From assembly GCA_963971285.1 (NCBI GenBank), contig OZ020265.1, positions 6,426,270-6,490,269 of the forward strand: a stretch of DNA of 64,000 nucleotides, written 5' to 3'. The stretch is from Astropecten irregularis (Eukaryota; Echinodermata; Asteroidea; Paxillosida; Astropectinidae). Both the position numbers and the translations under genes were made by a program. Positions within the stretch are counted from its first letter, which is position 1. Every line of letters begins with the position of its first letter. The notes under the pieces are model-generated. The model was not told the DNA's origin. It ran no database searches and saw only the letters and a list, made by a program, of their open reading frames with translations. Shown here one piece after another: positions 8,717-59,784 of the stretch.

Positions 8717-11700
8717 TCGAGAAAAAAAAAAAAAAAAAAAAAATATCGCAAATTTGTATGCAGATTAAAAGCTTAAAAGGAGCAAAAGATGGAAACCAGA
8801 CTGGTTAAAGTTGTTATGTAATTTCTTGTCTTTATTTGACACGTCAAATACTGTGATATACAGGGGAAAAAGCATTTAATACCCCAGGAAAAATTGAATT
8901 AAAAAAAAAAAAATCCGCCCACCCTACCCTATTTTCCAAACCTCTGTTACGCCAATACAACAATTTTTTTTTTATGGCCTAAGTATCGCCAATAGCCTAC
9001 TCGGAGTAGGTTGCCGACACCGAAGAAAAGGCAATAGCGATGCCGATTAAAAGGCGATAGCGATGCCGATTAAAAGGCGATAGCGATGCCGATTAAAAGG
9101 CAATAGCGATGCCGATTAAAAGGCGATAGCGATGCCGATTAAAAGGCGATGGAGTTGATTTCTACAGAAATGAAATGCCGTGTTTTAGTGTTATTTAGCG
9201 GTATTAAAGTTGGCTCTGTGGAAACATGCTAATAGACCGGTGTCTGATCAGGGGTCGATTTCACCAAACTCTCCACAACTTACTATAATCGTATGACTTG
9301 TTGGATAGGCCCCCTACAATGGGTTATCCTTCTTAACTCGAGTTACGATCGATTGCAGGGCTTCGTGAAATCGACGCCATAAGTAATAGCCAGAGTCAAT
9401 ACCTGGAATGCTTTGCTGAGTAGGTCCTCGCCTTCTTTACTGCCTAACAGATTGACGATGACCTGGTCGCCATACTGAGTCTTGATCATGGACATATGCC
9501 TGGCAAAACAACAACATTAATTGTAATCATAAAACCAACACTTTAAAATTAGTCATTGAAAAATGAACAAAGAATAATTGAATGGAGCAAGATTTAAACC
9601 AGCAACATCCGGAATACGGTACAGGCACTCTACAAACAGTTGGTAAGAGCGTTGGTACGATGTTCCGAGGGTCACAGGTTCGAATCCTGGAGCCTTGGGA
9701 TAAAGCGGTATGTGGTTTCATGGCTACAGACTGCTCAACGAAAAAAGATAATTGACTATTAGGGACACCACCAACATAGGGCTGAGTAGCTCAGTTGGTA
9801 GAGCACTGGTATTGCATTCTGGGGGTCACAGGTTTGAATCCTGGAGCCTAGGGATACACGGGTACGTGACTGGTTTCATGGCTTCTGACTGCCAAACGAA
9901 CAAAGATAATTGACCATTTGGGACACCGCCATCATAGGGGCAGGGTAGCAGTTGGTAAGAGCACCGGTGTGGTGTTCTGGGGGTCACAGGTTCGAATCCT
10001 GCTCACAGCGACGTCGTGCTCACCTGTCAAACGCTGGGGCTGACGCTTCATACCCTCTAGCCATTCTGACCCTGTGAGACCCCACCTGCAACCCTGGCTG
10101 TTCCCAAAAGAGCGGAACCGACCCGCGCGTCTGTACGAAAGACGAAATGCTCACATCGTCCAAAAAGATGACCTGAAAAATTAAATTAAACAAAATGTTT
10201 TTTAAATATAAAAAAAAAATATGAACCAAAAAAATTATACAAAATCAATAACTCCCCTTTCGTCCTGATCCTCTCATCCATTTATGTGTATCTTTTCTTG
10301 CATGTTCTTGTCCTCTTGTCATTTAGCCTTTGAGAAAAGTCCTGCTAGGATCAAAACGCCCAGGGGCCAATTTCATAAAACTGTTAAGCACAAAAATGTG
10401 CTAAGCACGACATTTCTGTCTAAATAAAAACAGAGTTAACAACCAAATTTCCACGTGTTGTGTATCACTTGTGATTGTTCTTTGGCTGTTGTTCGCTGAC
10501 CATGAATATCAAATGGAATTTTCAATGGTGGTTTGTTTTATTGGGTGAGACATTTTTGTGCTAAGCAAATTTTTGTGCTAACAGTTTTATGAAATTGGCC
10601 CCAGGAGCCAAAGAGCCCAGGCAAAGCCCACGTCTGACCTGGGGTCGATTCCACCAAACTCATCGTTACTTTTACTATCAATCGTAGGACATATGATGCA
10701 TGGCAACCTGCTACGTAGAAGTCTAAAGACACGATGGGTTAGCCTTCATATCTCGAGTTGCGATTGATCGTAGGGCTTCGTGAAAGCGACCCCAGGCATT
10801 TCAACAGTGCCTGGGGCCAACTTCACGGCCCTGCTTAGCACAAAAATTGTGCTAAGCAATTTGTTGTGCTTAAAGGTAATATCATACTTTGTTTTTTCAT
10901 CAACAAAATACAGATTCATGGGCAAAAATATAAAGCAAATGCAGTAACAGTCATCTGTGAAAATATCAGTCCCATACGGTGCCCGCTTTTTGAGAAAACA
11001 GTGAAAAACGGCCACAGTATTTCTTAATCTTGTCTTTGTTCATTTATTTTTGATCTTTTAAAAGATTTTCGGTCAATGTTTTACTAATTTCTGGATAAAT
11101 ACACCATTTCAGGCGGAACAATGTTAATGGTATGTTTCTAACATCACCATCTTCATACCCTGTAAGTTATATGTAAATCTGTGACCATTTCTGTTTTAGT
11201 TTCTTACCAAAGTATGATACTACCTTTAACAGCTCCATGAAATTGGCCAAAGTATGAAAGATTCTCTCCCTAAATTTCTCGTCTCGTACCTGTTCAGTTT
11301 CGCAAAAGTTTGCGACCTGCCCGTCGTCGTTTGTCCCGCGGACATTAAATCGAGTCCCCGCCCGTTCGCAGCTCAGTCTCGATATGAGACAAGCTTTTGC
11401 CTGCCTCGTTCCGCAGTAGATGGTTCGAATCTCAACACCTCCGCACATGACAACCAGTAACCAATCAGAACAGTTGACATTGTAGCGCTGTAGATGCAGG
11501 TGAAGGGTTCGATTCCTGTTTGTGGGGTCCAAATAGAAATGGTTATATGATTGTATTATAAAATAATGCATAGACCTATTCTATATGAATAAAACCAAAA
11601 ACATCAAATTCTGCTGGCTATACGCCTTTTTCACGGCGCATCCATGTTTGTCGCCTTCCTTGTATACCCGTTGGAAAAGATAACACAAATTCCCAAAAAG

Positions 11701-20225: not shown

Positions 20226-20560
20226 AACAAATAACCACAAGTGAAACTGACTGAATTTAAGGGATATTTTTTTCCCGATACGCGCAGCAATGCTGCAACC
20301 TGTGAACGATACATGGGGGATCACTCAAAGAGGATGAAATGATCCTTGGGGTGTGGCGGTGTGTGCGTGGTTTCATGGCTTCTGACTGCCAAACGAACAA
20401 AGATAATTGACTAAATTAGGTCACCACCAATATAGGGCTGGATAGCTCAGTTGGTATTGGTATAGAGCGCCTGTACGGTATTCAGGAGGTCGCTGGTTCG
20501 AATCCCGCTCCAGGCATTTTTTCTTTGTTCAATTTTCAATTAATTCAAATCTATTGAACT
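20226..20560 (+). repeat. tRNA-headed repeat with inverted front part
   Basis: 20226-20335 carries the body in reverse orientation (AGCAATGCTGCAACCTGTGA, GGGGGATCACTCAAAGAGGA). The rest is forward with a head at 20437-20512 (GGGCTGGATAGCTCAGTTGG, a short GGTATT insertion, B-box GGTTCGAATCC). It ends about 10 bp from the stop codon of the peptide gene. Confidence 0.7.
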
Positions 20561-20570
20561 TTACATACCA

Positions 20571-20782
20571 TTATATGCCAATAATGGCGAGTGCTGCCTT
20601 GCCAATTAAACCGGCAGCTGTCCCGATGATATCCATGAAATTTTGAAGCCGTTGCTGTTCTTCAAGGTTCATGCAAGTCATTGGATTCCCACGGCAAGCA
20701 GGGCCAAGTAGAGGTGGAACAAAAAATTCAAGATCCGTCTCGGAGTTCGGCTCACCTTCTTCGAAGTTGAACAGACTTTCTT
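20571..20782 (-). CDS. Peptide precursor exon 3: neutral hydrophobic cassette
   Basis: It encodes residues 95-164 and the TAA stop. It starts EESLFNFEEGE, parallel to PISLPDNFEESG of exon 2, has two cysteines (ACRGNPMTC), repeats LEEQQRLQ, and ends NFMDIIGTAAGLIGKAALAI and IGI. The last helix has one Asp and one Lys, so its net charge is about zero. Confidence 0.86.
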
Positions 20783-23700
20783 CTGCAAACATCAACCAAA
20801 CAACATGCCAAAATTACAGTGTTGTAGTCGAGTACATTTTCTCCGAGTACTTTGACTACCGAGTACCAAGACAGGTCGAGTACTTTGCCAGTCAAGTACA
20901 ACTACTTGTGCACCCGAGTACAAGTACGAGTACAAGTACTTATCTTCCGAGTACGAGTACGAGTACAAGTACTTATCTTCCGAGTACGAGTACGAGTACA
21001 AGTACTAGCAGTGGCGTCGCCAAGGGGGGGGGGGCAGGGGGGGCACGTTCCCCCCCTGGAAAACCTCGTGCCCCCCCCCCCCGCGTGCCCCCCCCCCCCC
21101 ATTTGAGATTTGGGTTGGTGAACAAAATATAATATATATTATTGTATAGTGCCCCCAACATTTGCTAGTGCCCCCCTTGTGCCCCCCCCCCCAGACTCAA
21201 AAGTCTGGTGACGCCACTGAGTACTAGTATCTTCCGGAAAAAACAAAACGAACAAGTTGCGCTGTAGCTGATCTAAAAATGGTAGTCAACACACGTGACT
21301 ATGCATTGCAACAGTAATACGTTACAACAACGTAAACGCCAGGCACGGCGAAGTCTATTTTCCAGACTCAACTATTCATAAGCATGTAATTTCTATAATT
21401 ATGCTACATATGATTCGTTGTTAGAATACTCAGATCCACGACCTGAACAGATTTTTTTTTATCGAGTACTCTTTTTCGAGTACGTAGATGCTCGAGTACA
21501 ATTTTTGGATGTCGAGTTCCGAGTATTTTGTAGCCCGAGTAGAAGTACCAAAGGACGAGTGCGAGTATTTATATATTTCCGGCTGAAAATGCTATATTTA
21601 TCCAGAAGATAATTAATAAAACAAAGACCGAAAAACCATTCTTTATGTTTTATAAGAAAAATTGAGTTTGTTTTTCGCTGTTTTCTCGTGACTCAGATGT
21701 CCGATTGAGCTCAAACTTTCACAGGTTCATCATTTCATGTACATGCTGGATTAAACAAGTGTGAGCGCTGTTCTGTTCTGTCACCTTTACCAATCATACA
21801 TTTAAAGATGATGTTCAACACTCAACAAACCTCGCTTTATTTGTTAAAACTATTATCCTTAAATTACTTGACATGAGAAAAAATATTTATTTAAAAAATA
21901 TTTCATTGTACACAGAAAGAGAGTATCTTTGGATGAATTTTCTCGTCAGCCCGCAAGCTCTCCAAAATTCAGATTCTCTGAATTTCGTCAATGGGGGCAG
22001 CAGACAAATTTGTGTGATTTCGTGACGTCAGATATGGGAGCCAAAATATTTTGAACGGAAGGCTCCCATATCTGACGTCACGAAATCATACAGATTTGTC
22101 TGCTGTCGCGCGCCATTGACAAAATTCAGAGAATCTGAATTTTGGGGAGCATGTTGGGAGAAAAAATCCTATAGTTATAGTTCTAACAAATAAAGCGAGG
22201 TTTAGTGTTGAACATCCTCTTTAAAGGAAGTATCATACTTTGGTAAGAAACCAAAACAGAAATGTTCACAGATTTACGTATAACTTTCAGGGCATAAGGA
22301 TGGTGCTGGTAGAAACCTACCGTTAATTTTTTTCCGCCTGAAATGGTGTATTTATCCAGAAATTAGTAAATCAACGACCGAAAATCTTTTTGATCTTTTA
22401 AAAGATCAAAAATAAAAGAGAAAAGACTTAAGAAATACTGTGGCCGTTTTTTCAAGATTTTCTCAAAAAGTGGGCACCGTATGGGACTGAAATTTTCACA
22501 GATGACTGTTACTGTATCTTCCTTGATATTTTTGCCCATGAATCTGTACTTCTTTAGGCCTTTTCACACGACGCTAAAAAAACTCTCAACCATTGAGAAA
22601 TTCTCTCATGGTTGCGAAATCTTACAAAAGTGTCATCGTGTGAAAGGACACCAATGCTTGAGAGTGACCGACGTCCCTGGTGAATCCTTGAGAGATTTTG
22701 ACCGAGGTCACCTACGACAAAATCTTCCGCTAGCGGAAGATTTCTCAAGGGACCCTTGAGATCTATCGTGTGAATAGAGAACAGCCCCTTTTGTACGACG
22801 TCCCTTGCGAAGTGCTTTCCAATGCGCATGTGTGATACACCGGTTTCATGGCCTTTGCATACCACGTGCTTTACCGCTCACCCTCATCGTCACATTGGTA
22901 CTAGCAGCGTTTACATTCATAAAATGCATAGTCTATCGACTACCCGCGTTCCGTCTCAAGGGAGGCTTGCGAAATGTTACACTGTGCCGTGTGAAAGGAC
23001 GCAAAAGCAGCCAGTGTAAAACCGTTTTGTAAGATTTCGCAACCTTGAGAAAATGTCTCAATGGTTGAGAGTTTTTTTGGCGTCGTGTGAAAAGGGCTTT
23101 TGACAAAAACCAAAGAATGATTACCTATTAGAATCCGTCTCAGAAAGATATTTGAATGTTTGAATTTTCTTAGCTTTACTAAGCGTTAGACCTACATACC
23201 ATTAGGCAAGGATCCTGGGGCCGTCACGGTGCCGCCGAACTTTTTGACAGCTTTCTTTGCAATCGCCAAGGCAGCTTTCTTCGCCATTTTCTTCAAAAAG
23301 CCTCCAATACCTTGAAGACGCTGTTGCTCTTCAAGATCCGAGTCCCCACCGCCGTGACGGGCATGATGCTCCGTGTCTACAGCAGCCCCACTTTCTTCAA
23401 AGTTGTCGGGCAGACTTATTGGTTCTGAAACATCAACAAAACAATATGGTACACATTGAACACGACAATTATTGCTAAAAGGTAGTATCATACTTTGGTA
23501 TAGGAAACCATGACAGGAATCTTCACAGATTTACCTGTAACTTAGAGGGTATAAAGATGGTGATGGTAGAAACATACCGTTAAAATTTGTCTGCCTGAAA
23601 TACTGTATTTATCCAGAAAAGAGCAAAATCAATGACCCAAAACAATTTAGATCTTTTAAAGAACAAAATATAACGGTGAAAAGACATACGAAATTCTGTG

Positions 23701-24633
23701 GGCGTTTTTTACTGTAATTCTCAAAAAGTGGGCACCGCATGGGACTGAAATTTTCACAGATGACAGATACTGTATCTGTCTTGACTGCCCATGAATCTGT
23801 ACTTCTTTGACAAAAACCAAAGTATGATACTACCGTAAATGACTAAAATGTTTTCATTTTTTTTAAAATGAAAATCAGAAATGTGTACGAAATTTGAACA
23901 AATCAATTGAATTATTGTTGAAGTCATTGAAAAGTGAACAAAGAAAAAAAACGACTGGAGCGGGATACAGACCAGCGACCAACGGAATACGGAGTACAGG
24001 CGCTCTACCAACTGAGCTATCCAGCCCCAGTATATTAGTGGTGTCCCTAATAGTCAATTATCTTTGTTCGTTTGGCAGTCAGAAGCCATGAAACCACTCA
24101 CATACCGCCATATTGTATCCCAATGACCATTAAGATACGCGCAACATTAGCAATGCTGTATTCAAAACCTGAGAAACGGTACATGAAATGTGACCAGCTC
24201 TGTAAAAATGAGGCATAAGTCACACATTTTGACAAACTGAATTATCTGTATTATGAGAAAGAATGCGTCATGAGGTTTAAATATGGTCTATGTTTAAGGT
24301 CTGTAGCATTCTACATTCTACAGATATACTAATTCTAAAACACAGAATCGTCCTATTATTCTACAAACTCTTCCCATGTTTCATAAGCTATAACTTGTAA
24401 AACATGCTGAGTGACATGTGACTCATTTTCGCAGAGCGAGTCACAAATATATAACCACAAGGGAAACTGACTGGATCTAAACTGAGTCATTGAAAAGTGA
24501 ACAAAGAAAAATTGACTAGAGCGGGATTCGAACCAGTTTCAAAGCTGTTCAATATAGATCAAAACGATAACTTACCTGCCACGATAGCTGCGACACAAGC
24601 GACGAGCAAGACTAACAGCACACAGCGAGCCAT
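20571..24633 (-). CDS. Secreted two-cassette antimicrobial-type peptide precursor (not assigned to a named family)
   Basis: Three exons (24576-24633, 23200-23424, 20571-20782) splice GT/AG, both introns in phase 1, into 164 residues. The order is a signal peptide (MARCVLLVLLVACVAAIVA), an acidic pro-part, LEEQQRLQ at 50-57, a cationic helix GIGGFLKKMAKKAALAI from 58 onward (eight lysines, no acidic residue up to 84), a second acidic part with C124 and C131, LEEQQRLQ again at 134-141, and a 23-residue hydrophobic helix to the stop. An acidic pro-region before a lysine-rich amphipathic helix is the usual layout of secreted antimicrobial precursors, and permeabilising microbes is the inferred role. 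I do not recognise a named family. Other readings are a venom-like or signalling peptide. The gene model is strong; the function is inferred. Confidence 0.85.
20806..21250. mobile_element. GAGTAC-rich repeat carrying a hAT MITE
   Basis: The outer sequence is a run of CGAGTAC and GAGTACAAGTACTT motifs (20830-21008, resumed at 21228). It is split by a hAT MITE. More CGAGTAC motifs at 21470-21570 suggest the far end of the same element. It lies in intron 2 of the peptide gene. Confidence 0.6.
21009..21219. mobile_element. hAT MITE, 211 bp, 8-bp target duplication
   Basis: The ends CAGTGGCGTCGCCA and TGGTGACGCCACTG are inverted and flanked by AGTACTAG (21001-21008 and 21220-21227). The subterminal parts hold long G and C runs. 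Confidence 0.9.
21580..21799. mobile_element. Half copy of TTAA MITE family 2
   Basis: TATTTATCCAGAAGATAATT, GTGACTCAGATGTCCGATTG, TTTCATGTACATGCTGGATT and ACCAATCATACATTTAAAG match one half of family 2. It ends at a TTTAAAG shared with the next element. Confidence 0.65.
21800..22224. mobile_element. Foldback element between TTTAAAG sites
   Basis: Nearly the whole element is one long inverted repeat. AGATGATGTTCAACACT and ACCTCGCTTTATTTGTTA at the left return inverted at the right, and GGGAGCC with its complement flanks the centre near 22050. TTTAA borders both ends. Confidence 0.8.
22225..23125. mobile_element. TTAA MITE family 1 split by a CCTTTTCACACGACGC element
   Basis: The MITE runs 22225-22555 and resumes at 23100 (TTGACAAAAACCAAAGAATG). 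The insert, 22556-23099, has inverted ends GGCCTTTTCACACGACGC and GCGTCGTGTGAAAAGGGC, extended by ACTCTCAACCATTGAG. Confidence 0.8.
23200..23424 (-). CDS. Peptide precursor exon 2: cationic cassette
   Basis: This symmetric 1-1 exon of 225 nt covers residues 20-94. The acidic part has D and E clusters and an HHARHGGGD stretch, then LEEQQRLQ and GIGGFLKKMAKKAALAIAKK, then AVKKFGG and a tail TVTAPGSLPNG. Lysine pairs recur every three to four residues, fitting one face of an amphipathic helix. A GG pair at 83-84 may mark trimming or amidation; this is uncertain. Confidence 0.87.
23478..23835. mobile_element. TTAA-type MITE, family 1, in intron 1 of the peptide gene
   Basis: The ends AGGTAGTATCATACTTTGG and CCAAAGTATGATACTACC are clear. 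The flanking TTAA sites are mutated. Confidence 0.75.
23915..24215 (-). repeat. tRNA-headed repeat (minus strand)
   Basis: The head, read on the minus strand, is GGGGCTGGATAGCTCAGTTG then GGTAGAGCGCC. The B-box is degraded. The body with GGCAGTCAGAAGCCATGAAA follows to about 24190. A shorter tail fragment lies at 24440-24535. Confidence 0.7.
24576..24633 (-). CDS. Peptide precursor exon 1: signal peptide
   Basis: It encodes a 19-residue hydrophobic leader with small residues before the likely cut (AAIVA then E20). The ATG context is ACACCATGG. The donor is GCAG/GTAAGTT, phase 1. Confidence 0.88.
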
Positions 24634-24690
24634 GGTGTAGGCCTGGTAGACTCGGTGAGACGAAGGTACCGAACCACACCAAACAGTGCC

Positions 24691-24698
24691 CTTATAAG
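24691..24698 (-). promoter_or_regulatory. TATA box of the peptide gene
   Basis: On the minus strand GCTTATAAGGG lies 58 bp upstream of the ATG. That leaves room for a short 5' leader of about 30 nt. A core TATA box suits a strongly inducible small secreted-peptide gene. Confidence 0.6.

Positions 24699-30333: not shown

Positions 30334-59784
<29,451 letters not shown>

Follow-up and report, generated by a model that had tools for sequence, protein, structure and literature searches.

Gene-encoded cationic defence peptides with acidic pro-pieces are already known. Amphibian skin antimicrobial families combine a conserved signal peptide and an acidic propiece with a hypervariable mature peptide (PMC7106915), and the multigenic myticalins of mussels join a conserved signal to an anionic propeptide and a hypervariable cationic peptide (PMC5577615). 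In Bombina toads, precursors of the bombinin, bombinin H, and feleucin kind carry both a 27-residue cationic helix of the GIGG... type and a hydrophobic peptide, with acidic stretches in between; when two feleucins were combined with bombinin, one acted synergistically and the other additively (PMC4070539). Few asteroid antimicrobial peptides are on record. Coelomocyte peptides of Asterias rubens are reportedly the subject of a 2004 report, going by its title. A 2025 review table contains one asteroid entry, PpCrAMP of Patiria pectinifera (PMC12466427), and the secreted A. rubens peptides KARTESH and CHUPA, with a signal, an acidic region and a four-cysteine mature peptide, are described as raised after injury and as having homologues in other echinoderms (PMC11891777). 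Here we describe W, a gene in a 64,000-nucleotide (nt) stretch of the genome of the starfish Astropecten irregularis (contig OZ020265.1, positions 6,426,270 to 6,490,269; hereafter the window), together with the gene family to which it belongs. The 16.3-kb mitochondrial contig of the assembly agrees with this origin: of translation tables 5, 9, and 13 compared on COX1, table 9, which reads AAA as Asn, yields the conserved residues and fits echinoderms, and frames resembling ND1 and ND2 (named by eye) run on the strand opposite COX1, an inverted block that is the asteroid arrangement. As the best explanation of the evidence as a whole, W probably encodes a secreted host-defence precursor that releases membrane-active peptides.

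W consists of three minus-strand exons (Table 1) joined across two GT/AG introns of phase 1. The coding sequence of 495 nt including the stop codon encodes a precursor of 164 amino acids. Re-derivation from the sequence reproduced, exact to the base, the three-exon model of a preliminary description of this DNA, as well as its LEEQQRLQ motif occurring twice, each time before a helix-like segment, and its first helix with eight lysines and no acidic residue, a 27-mer running from GIGG to FGG. The precursor opens with a signal peptide (assigned by eye), followed by a pro-region (residues 20-57) that ends in LEEQQRLQ, peptide 1 from residue 58, a spacer, and peptide 2 (residues 142-164). Net charges along this order are -8 for the pro-region, +8 for the peptide 1 core, -8 for the spacer, and zero for peptide 2. 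Cysteines occur only at residues 4, 13, 124, and 131, leaving residues 58-94 and 142-164 free of them. The protein contains neither KR nor RR, so that the usual convertase sites are absent, KK in peptide 1 aside. Compared by eye, the two 24-nt copies encoding LEEQQRLQ differ by four silent changes and no replacement. In single-sequence AlphaFold2 (AF2) models, the 74-residue exon 2 piece forms one helix (residues 28-62) that spans LEEQQRLQ and peptide 1, with block values of the predicted local distance difference test score (pLDDT) of 88-90 over residues 41-60, and the 69-residue exon 3 piece forms one helix (residues 39-67) comprising the second LEEQQRLQ and peptide 2. Exons 2 and 3 both finish near ...TAATG/GTATGT (slash, donor boundary). 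Because exon 3 keeps a donor-like TG/GTATGT directly after its stop codon, it resembles a duplicated exon 2; it looks like an exon 2 copy turned terminal, or an intron in the 3' untranslated region (UTR) could follow.

Protein searches of the assembly recovered two close paralogues, A and B, both on contig C30 and about 1 Mb to either side of W; the genome-wide counts given here refer to the 475.7-Mb assembly, and those from protein and DNA searches are lower bounds. A (C30:5.468 Mb, minus strand, 294 amino acids) and B (C30:7.482 Mb, plus strand, 289 amino acids) have full three-exon models with phase-1 introns and open frames, and each carries four cassettes, three in exon 2 and the fourth in exon 3. 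Two of the exon 2 cassettes contain CRCxPWLPVC and one is GIGDFLKDMAKKAALAIAKKAVKKFGG, while the exon 3 cassette starts with KKKNKFGRKRGRHAKGKSQ. A motif ending in LQ (QQRLQ, QQWLQ, EQQLQ, or QQQLQ) stands ahead of all ten cassettes of W (n = 2), A (n = 4), and B (n = 4). This constancy suggests that the cutting protease takes Leu at P2 and Gln at P1; alternatively, cleavage would precede the Gln, which would then form pyroglutamate. The only differences between A and B are two in-frame indels, of 9 and 24 nt, and substitutions, with 9 silent changes and 18 replacements in 286 aligned codons; their ratio of replacement to silent substitution rates (dN/dS, simple counting) of 0.55 is compatible with mild or relaxed coding constraint. 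Across much of the 10 kb compared, long aligned blocks of the two regions are 85-99% identical, so that A and B are not independent witnesses; the pair would be the product of an inverted duplication of recent date, a duplicate made by the assembly being less likely. The open-frame paralogues, the silent-only differences between the LEEQQRLQ copies, and the high copy number of the conserved signal exon place the W gene model beyond chance.

The first exon of W is shared far beyond its close paralogues. Forty places (scored of 113 candidates) match the 131 nt of its signal exon and 5'UTR with 92-100% identity, and exon 1 itself shows 92-97% DNA identity to the other 39 places listed genome-wide. 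A 33-nt signal-exon pattern, allowing up to three mismatches, occurs at 80 places, 29 of them exact (reversed control: 0), spread over contigs C10, C12, C25, C29, C30, and C142. Among 16 copies, mean identity is 95% in the 5'UTR and 96% in the signal coding sequence, compared with 31-76% in upstream blocks and 34-68% in the intron. We considered the signal exon as a mobile element and rejected this, as homology outside about -100 to +66 varies per copy and 58 of the 80 copies precede an acidic exon; gene duplication fits these copy-specific flanks and the recurrent partner exon better.

The acidic exon, which starts with EQTTEADLPNTSLGETD and often runs on as an Asp-rich repeat, lies downstream of most signal-exon copies. 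Searches at E ≤ 1 located it at 67 places (weakest 0.32), or 57 once neighbours were merged. For the 58 signal exons noted above, a same-strand acidic exon lies within 8 kb downstream, as against 8 in the strand-flip control; 46 of the 57 merged acidic exons are accounted for in this way. Eleven of the 67 rows contain a stop; in the one case read (C10:3.548 Mb), it lies within the downstream splice donor. Some copies of the superfamily may be pseudogenes. At two loci (L057, C12:3.298 Mb; L065, C30:4.695 Mb), an in-frame coding minisatellite has swollen the acidic exon to about 250-350 codons, and the Asp-rich minisatellite exons reach net charges down to -121. At another (L036, C30 8.250-8.254 Mb), four tandem signal exons spaced about 590-790 nt apart stand upstream of a single acidic exon and would be alternative first exons or dead copies. 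Four family genes that follow each other about 8.25 kb apart at C30 9.968-9.998 Mb agree in their match scores and in their extracted open reading frames, an array that points to recent tandem amplification. The remaining 22 signal exons have no recognised acidic exon. W, A, and B are among them; of the other 19, two precede a known payload type within 4 kb and 17 have nothing recognised behind them and may carry payload types not yet seen. Copies without an acidic exon include those at C30 1.55-1.60 Mb (n = 4), 1.78 Mb, and 5.91 Mb, and at C29 7.37 Mb and 11.64-11.87 Mb. Those at C30:1.552-1.600 Mb, C30:5.913 Mb, and C29:11.637-11.873 Mb belong to the 17.

Searches at E ≤ 0.01 recovered basic payload exons of two types, one rich in Arg and Cys (17 places, two with stops) and one combining Cys with a KAYWRKxN repeat (24 places, none with stops). 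After merging, 32 of these 39 Arg/Lys/Cys-rich exons lie less than 3 kb downstream of a same-strand acidic exon (flip control: 0) and seven do not. Family payloads reach a net charge of up to +51. Six hand-picked payloads, one of them from an apparently frameshifted copy, have a common core, C-L-x4/5-C-x9-C-x5-C, whose profile matched nothing relevant in the PDB and none of the KASH2 entries there at E ≤ 10. In eight assembled pairs (five of the six payloads of at least +15 in a scan described below, the genes at C30 8.245 Mb and C10 3.548 Mb, and W), the charges of pro-piece and payload oppose each other (Spearman -0.81), and the relation weakens to -0.70 when locus L054, omitted as unconvincing, is added. 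An opposition of charge is thus only suggestive for the superfamily. We rejected it as proof, since its significance is gone without W and with L054 restored; charge balance is reported for frogs and is not robust here.

W belongs to this superfamily because of its signal exon, and further ties are weak. It has the near-invariant signal exon and 5'UTR block, and its cationic payload follows an acidic segment (-8, then +8). When the starts of 16 acidic exons served as a profile, two exons of A, exon 3 (E 0.003) and exon 2 (E 0.02), scored above all 1200 shuffles, if weakly, and no exon of W or B did, although W exon 2 and the superfamily acidic exon each start at a phase-1 acceptor. W, A, and B are best seen as a divergent subfamily with the common signal exon, their own multi-cassette exons, and an LQ motif instead of basic sites. 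The precursor reading of the preliminary description was sound in that W is a real gene with two cassettes and a secreted layout, yet it was incomplete, as W does not stand alone but draws on a signal exon shared genome-wide. In its overall design, W appears to be a divergent, multi-cassette representative of a large superfamily of starfish precursors whose construction is like that of the antimicrobial families of amphibians and mussels. The superfamily has the layout described for amphibians (PMC7106915), but its pro-piece occupies an exon of its own, often an Asp-rich repeat, and its Arg/Lys/Cys-rich payloads and the multi-cassette precursors of the W subfamily are unlike those of the amphibian families as described there. 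Myticalins, according to their description (PMC5577615), differ in a C-terminal propeptide with a dibasic site and in having signal and mature peptide in one exon.

The preliminary description had found no named family for W, and our searches agree with it: the protein database, PDB, Pfam, and centrocin-type chains yielded no credible match. The W and A precursors had no relative in the protein database at E ≤ 1, including the 164-residue model for which such a search had been proposed. Only noise was obtained from the PDB (best E 0.068, a trehalase) and Pfam (best E 0.039, below cut-off). A published description of the gene or family was not found in open-access PMC, outside which most subscription papers lie. 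In function, W would come closest to the bombinin precursor: W likewise holds a GIG-type helix and a hydrophobic co-peptide in one precursor, an architecture as described in PMC4070539, and in alignment with a GIGG-type bombinin, peptide 1 outscores 99.7% of its shuffles (p 0.0022, one of ten tests). The toad precursors are described with KR or GKR sites and amidation, whereas W has the LQ-ending motif in place of such sites, and the likeness, spanning different phyla, is probably convergent. KARTESH and CHUPA resemble the four-cysteine payloads of the superfamily in layout, a comparison made by description only (PMC11891777); they are described with dibasic cleavage, whereas W has neither a four-cysteine peptide nor KR or RR. 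PpCrAMP, also compared by description, is described as a Cys-rich beta-hairpin (PMC12466427), and neither W peptide contains Cys. Membership in the strongylocins can be rejected, as W has only two cysteines outside the signal peptide against six in the strongylocin mature peptide.

From these features, a route from precursor to active peptides can be proposed. The predicted signal peptide would lead the W precursor into the secretory pathway, where the acidic segments, with a net charge of -8 before peptide 1, would mask the lysine-rich peptide (+8) until its release. A protease recognising the repeated ...QQxLQ-type sequence, rather than a dibasic convertase, would cut ahead of each helix, either after Gln (P1), Leu then being P2, or after Leu, which would leave Gln as an N-terminal pyroglutamate. 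N-terminal pyroglutamate has been reported on one centrocin light chain (PMC4805251). Cleavage would free peptide 1 as a cationic, probably membrane-disrupting helix, and the neutral hydrophobic helix of peptide 2 may act together with it, as in bombinin precursors. We infer the expression of W, the cleavage site, the membrane activity, the synergy, and the role in immunity, and an antimicrobial function is the best reading of this layout.

Several observations weigh against a host-defence precursor. The antimicrobial reading of W is a prediction from sequence. The hydrophobic moment of peptide 1 does not exceed that of shuffles of its own composition (p 0.14), and amphipathicity was rejected as proof for this peptide; peptide 2 exceeds its shuffles (p 0.016) but is uncharged, which is unusual for an antimicrobial peptide acting on its own. 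The AF2 models of both pieces are single-sequence predictions with mean pLDDT values of 68.5 (exon 2 piece) and 62.2 (exon 3 piece). Among six exons tested, no W or B exon scored above all 1200 shuffles, so that homology of W exon 2 to the superfamily acidic exon was not detected. The charge relation is not robust: once W is removed and L054 included, the Spearman coefficient falls to -0.57 (p 0.14). A scan of up to 1.3 kb past the acidic exons gave a weak signal, with payloads of at least +15 at 6 of 21 unique loci and at 1 of 21 in the control, the other strand; it began with 30 loci, of which five had no phase-2 donor and four were duplicates, and was superseded by the payload-type searches at E ≤ 0.01. 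Finally, the negative database result for W and A is limited by the uncertain starfish content of the protein database.

Of the alternatives, the one that survives best, though unlikely, keeps the same release of peptides and assigns them to body-wall or mucus secretions as a chemical deterrent against predators or epibionts, in place of an immune effector role in coelomic fluid. Lytic helices would suit both uses, and a conserved signal, a variable cationic payload, and many copies also fit secreted defensive arsenals. It is improbable that the family makes proteins while the W locus does not, as a duplicated non-expressed or decaying copy. Decay in the family is suggested by a payload exon at C30:8.249 Mb that appears, by eye, out of frame with its acidic exon and by the stops in two of the 17 Arg/Cys-type payload matches, and W exon 3 itself ends in a donor-like remnant; against this, W retains an open frame, canonical splice sites, a TATA-like box, and a motif that has diverged by silent changes only. 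Slightly less probable again is a precursor of several neuropeptides, hormones, or attractants. Such a gene would be expected to encode more than one peptide and to repeat its processing motif, as seen here, but W has no dibasic KR or RR, the cassettes inside one precursor (A, B, or W) are strongly unlike in sequence, and payloads elsewhere in the family are Arg/Lys/Cys-rich and highly charged. A centrocin-like precursor, suggested by the order of parts, is very doubtful. Centrocins are described with the same order, namely a 20-residue signal, a 30-residue pro-region, a cationic chain of 30-32 residues, a 24-residue interchain, and a short light chain (PMC4805251). Their chains are disulphide-joined, however, and both W peptides lack a Cys for an interchain bond, which rules out membership, while three heavy-chain-type sequences given in that source aligned no better than shuffles with peptide 1 (p 0.17-0.71) or peptide 2 (p 0.08-0.55). 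Least likely of all is a secreted polyampholyte for skeleton, mucus, or adhesion. Asp-rich stretches could bind calcium and the minisatellite exons are extremely acidic, but W itself is not Asp-rich, and the basic payloads are encoded in an exon of their own, a common Cys pattern being present in six.

A host-defence precursor thus remains the preferred interpretation of W. The starfish family appears to be new, as do its LQ layout with several cassettes and the extent to which one signal exon is reused. More tentatively, the superfamily may be a modular starfish peptide arsenal. Duplication and exon exchange would have joined at least 80 near-invariant 5'UTR/signal exons, on six contigs, to varied payload exons, some acidic and some cationic; each precursor of the W class would release between two and four peptides of unrelated structure by means of a protease directed to LQ instead of dibasic sites, and the 17 further signal exons would possibly lead to unseen payload types. 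If true, a constant secretion exon with changing payloads would help to explain how effectors diversify without adaptive immunity. Such a family would also supply a set of peptides for testing, along with what may be a new processing signal (LQ), and its near-invariant signal exon should ease its retrieval from starfish RNA sequencing data.

Table 1. Features of the W locus (window positions).
Feature	Positions	Strand	Description
W exon 1	24576..24633	-	Start codon and signal peptide MARCVLLVLLVACVAAIVA; phase-1 donor GTAAGT
5'UTR-like block, -60 to -1	24634..24693	-	Conserved with exon 1 among copies; 95% mean pairwise identity in 16 copies
TATA-like TTATAAG (candidate)	24691..24697	-	About 60 nt upstream of ATG; similar in three other copies examined
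W exon 2	23200..23424	-	Acidic pro-region, LEEQQRLQ, cationic peptide 1; phase-1 donor GTATGT
First LEEQQRLQ, putative processing site	23312..23335	-	Residues 50-57
Peptide 1 core GIGGFLKKMAKKAALAIAKKAVKKFGG	23231..23311	-	8 Lys, 0 Asp/Glu; helix in single-sequence AF2 model
W exon 3	20571..20782	-	Acidic spacer with two Cys, LEEQQRLQ, peptide 2, stop
Second LEEQQRLQ	20643..20666	-	Residues 134-141; silent differences only from first copy
Peptide 2 NFMDIIGTAAGLIGKAALAIIGI	20574..20642	-	Net charge 0, hydrophobic; helix in low-confidence AF2 model

Beside and inside intron 1 of W, tRNA-Tyr-like repeat pieces occur at 20436-20516 (plus strand), 23946-24011, and 24489-24536, and are probably derived from a short interspersed nuclear element. 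Elsewhere in the window, an open frame at 11167-11580 (minus strand) matches the SacI-homology domain (Syja_N, PF02383, E 8e-20), a tandem unit of 104-105 nt occurs at six scattered places (6889, 27778, 42325, 43372, 45366, and 51057), and a 34-nt minisatellite of about 27 copies at 52542-53448 is open in at least two frames. In the wider assembly, a COX1 sequence (G000:C131:32162-33484) is free of stops under the bacterial code, possibly marking a bacterial contig.

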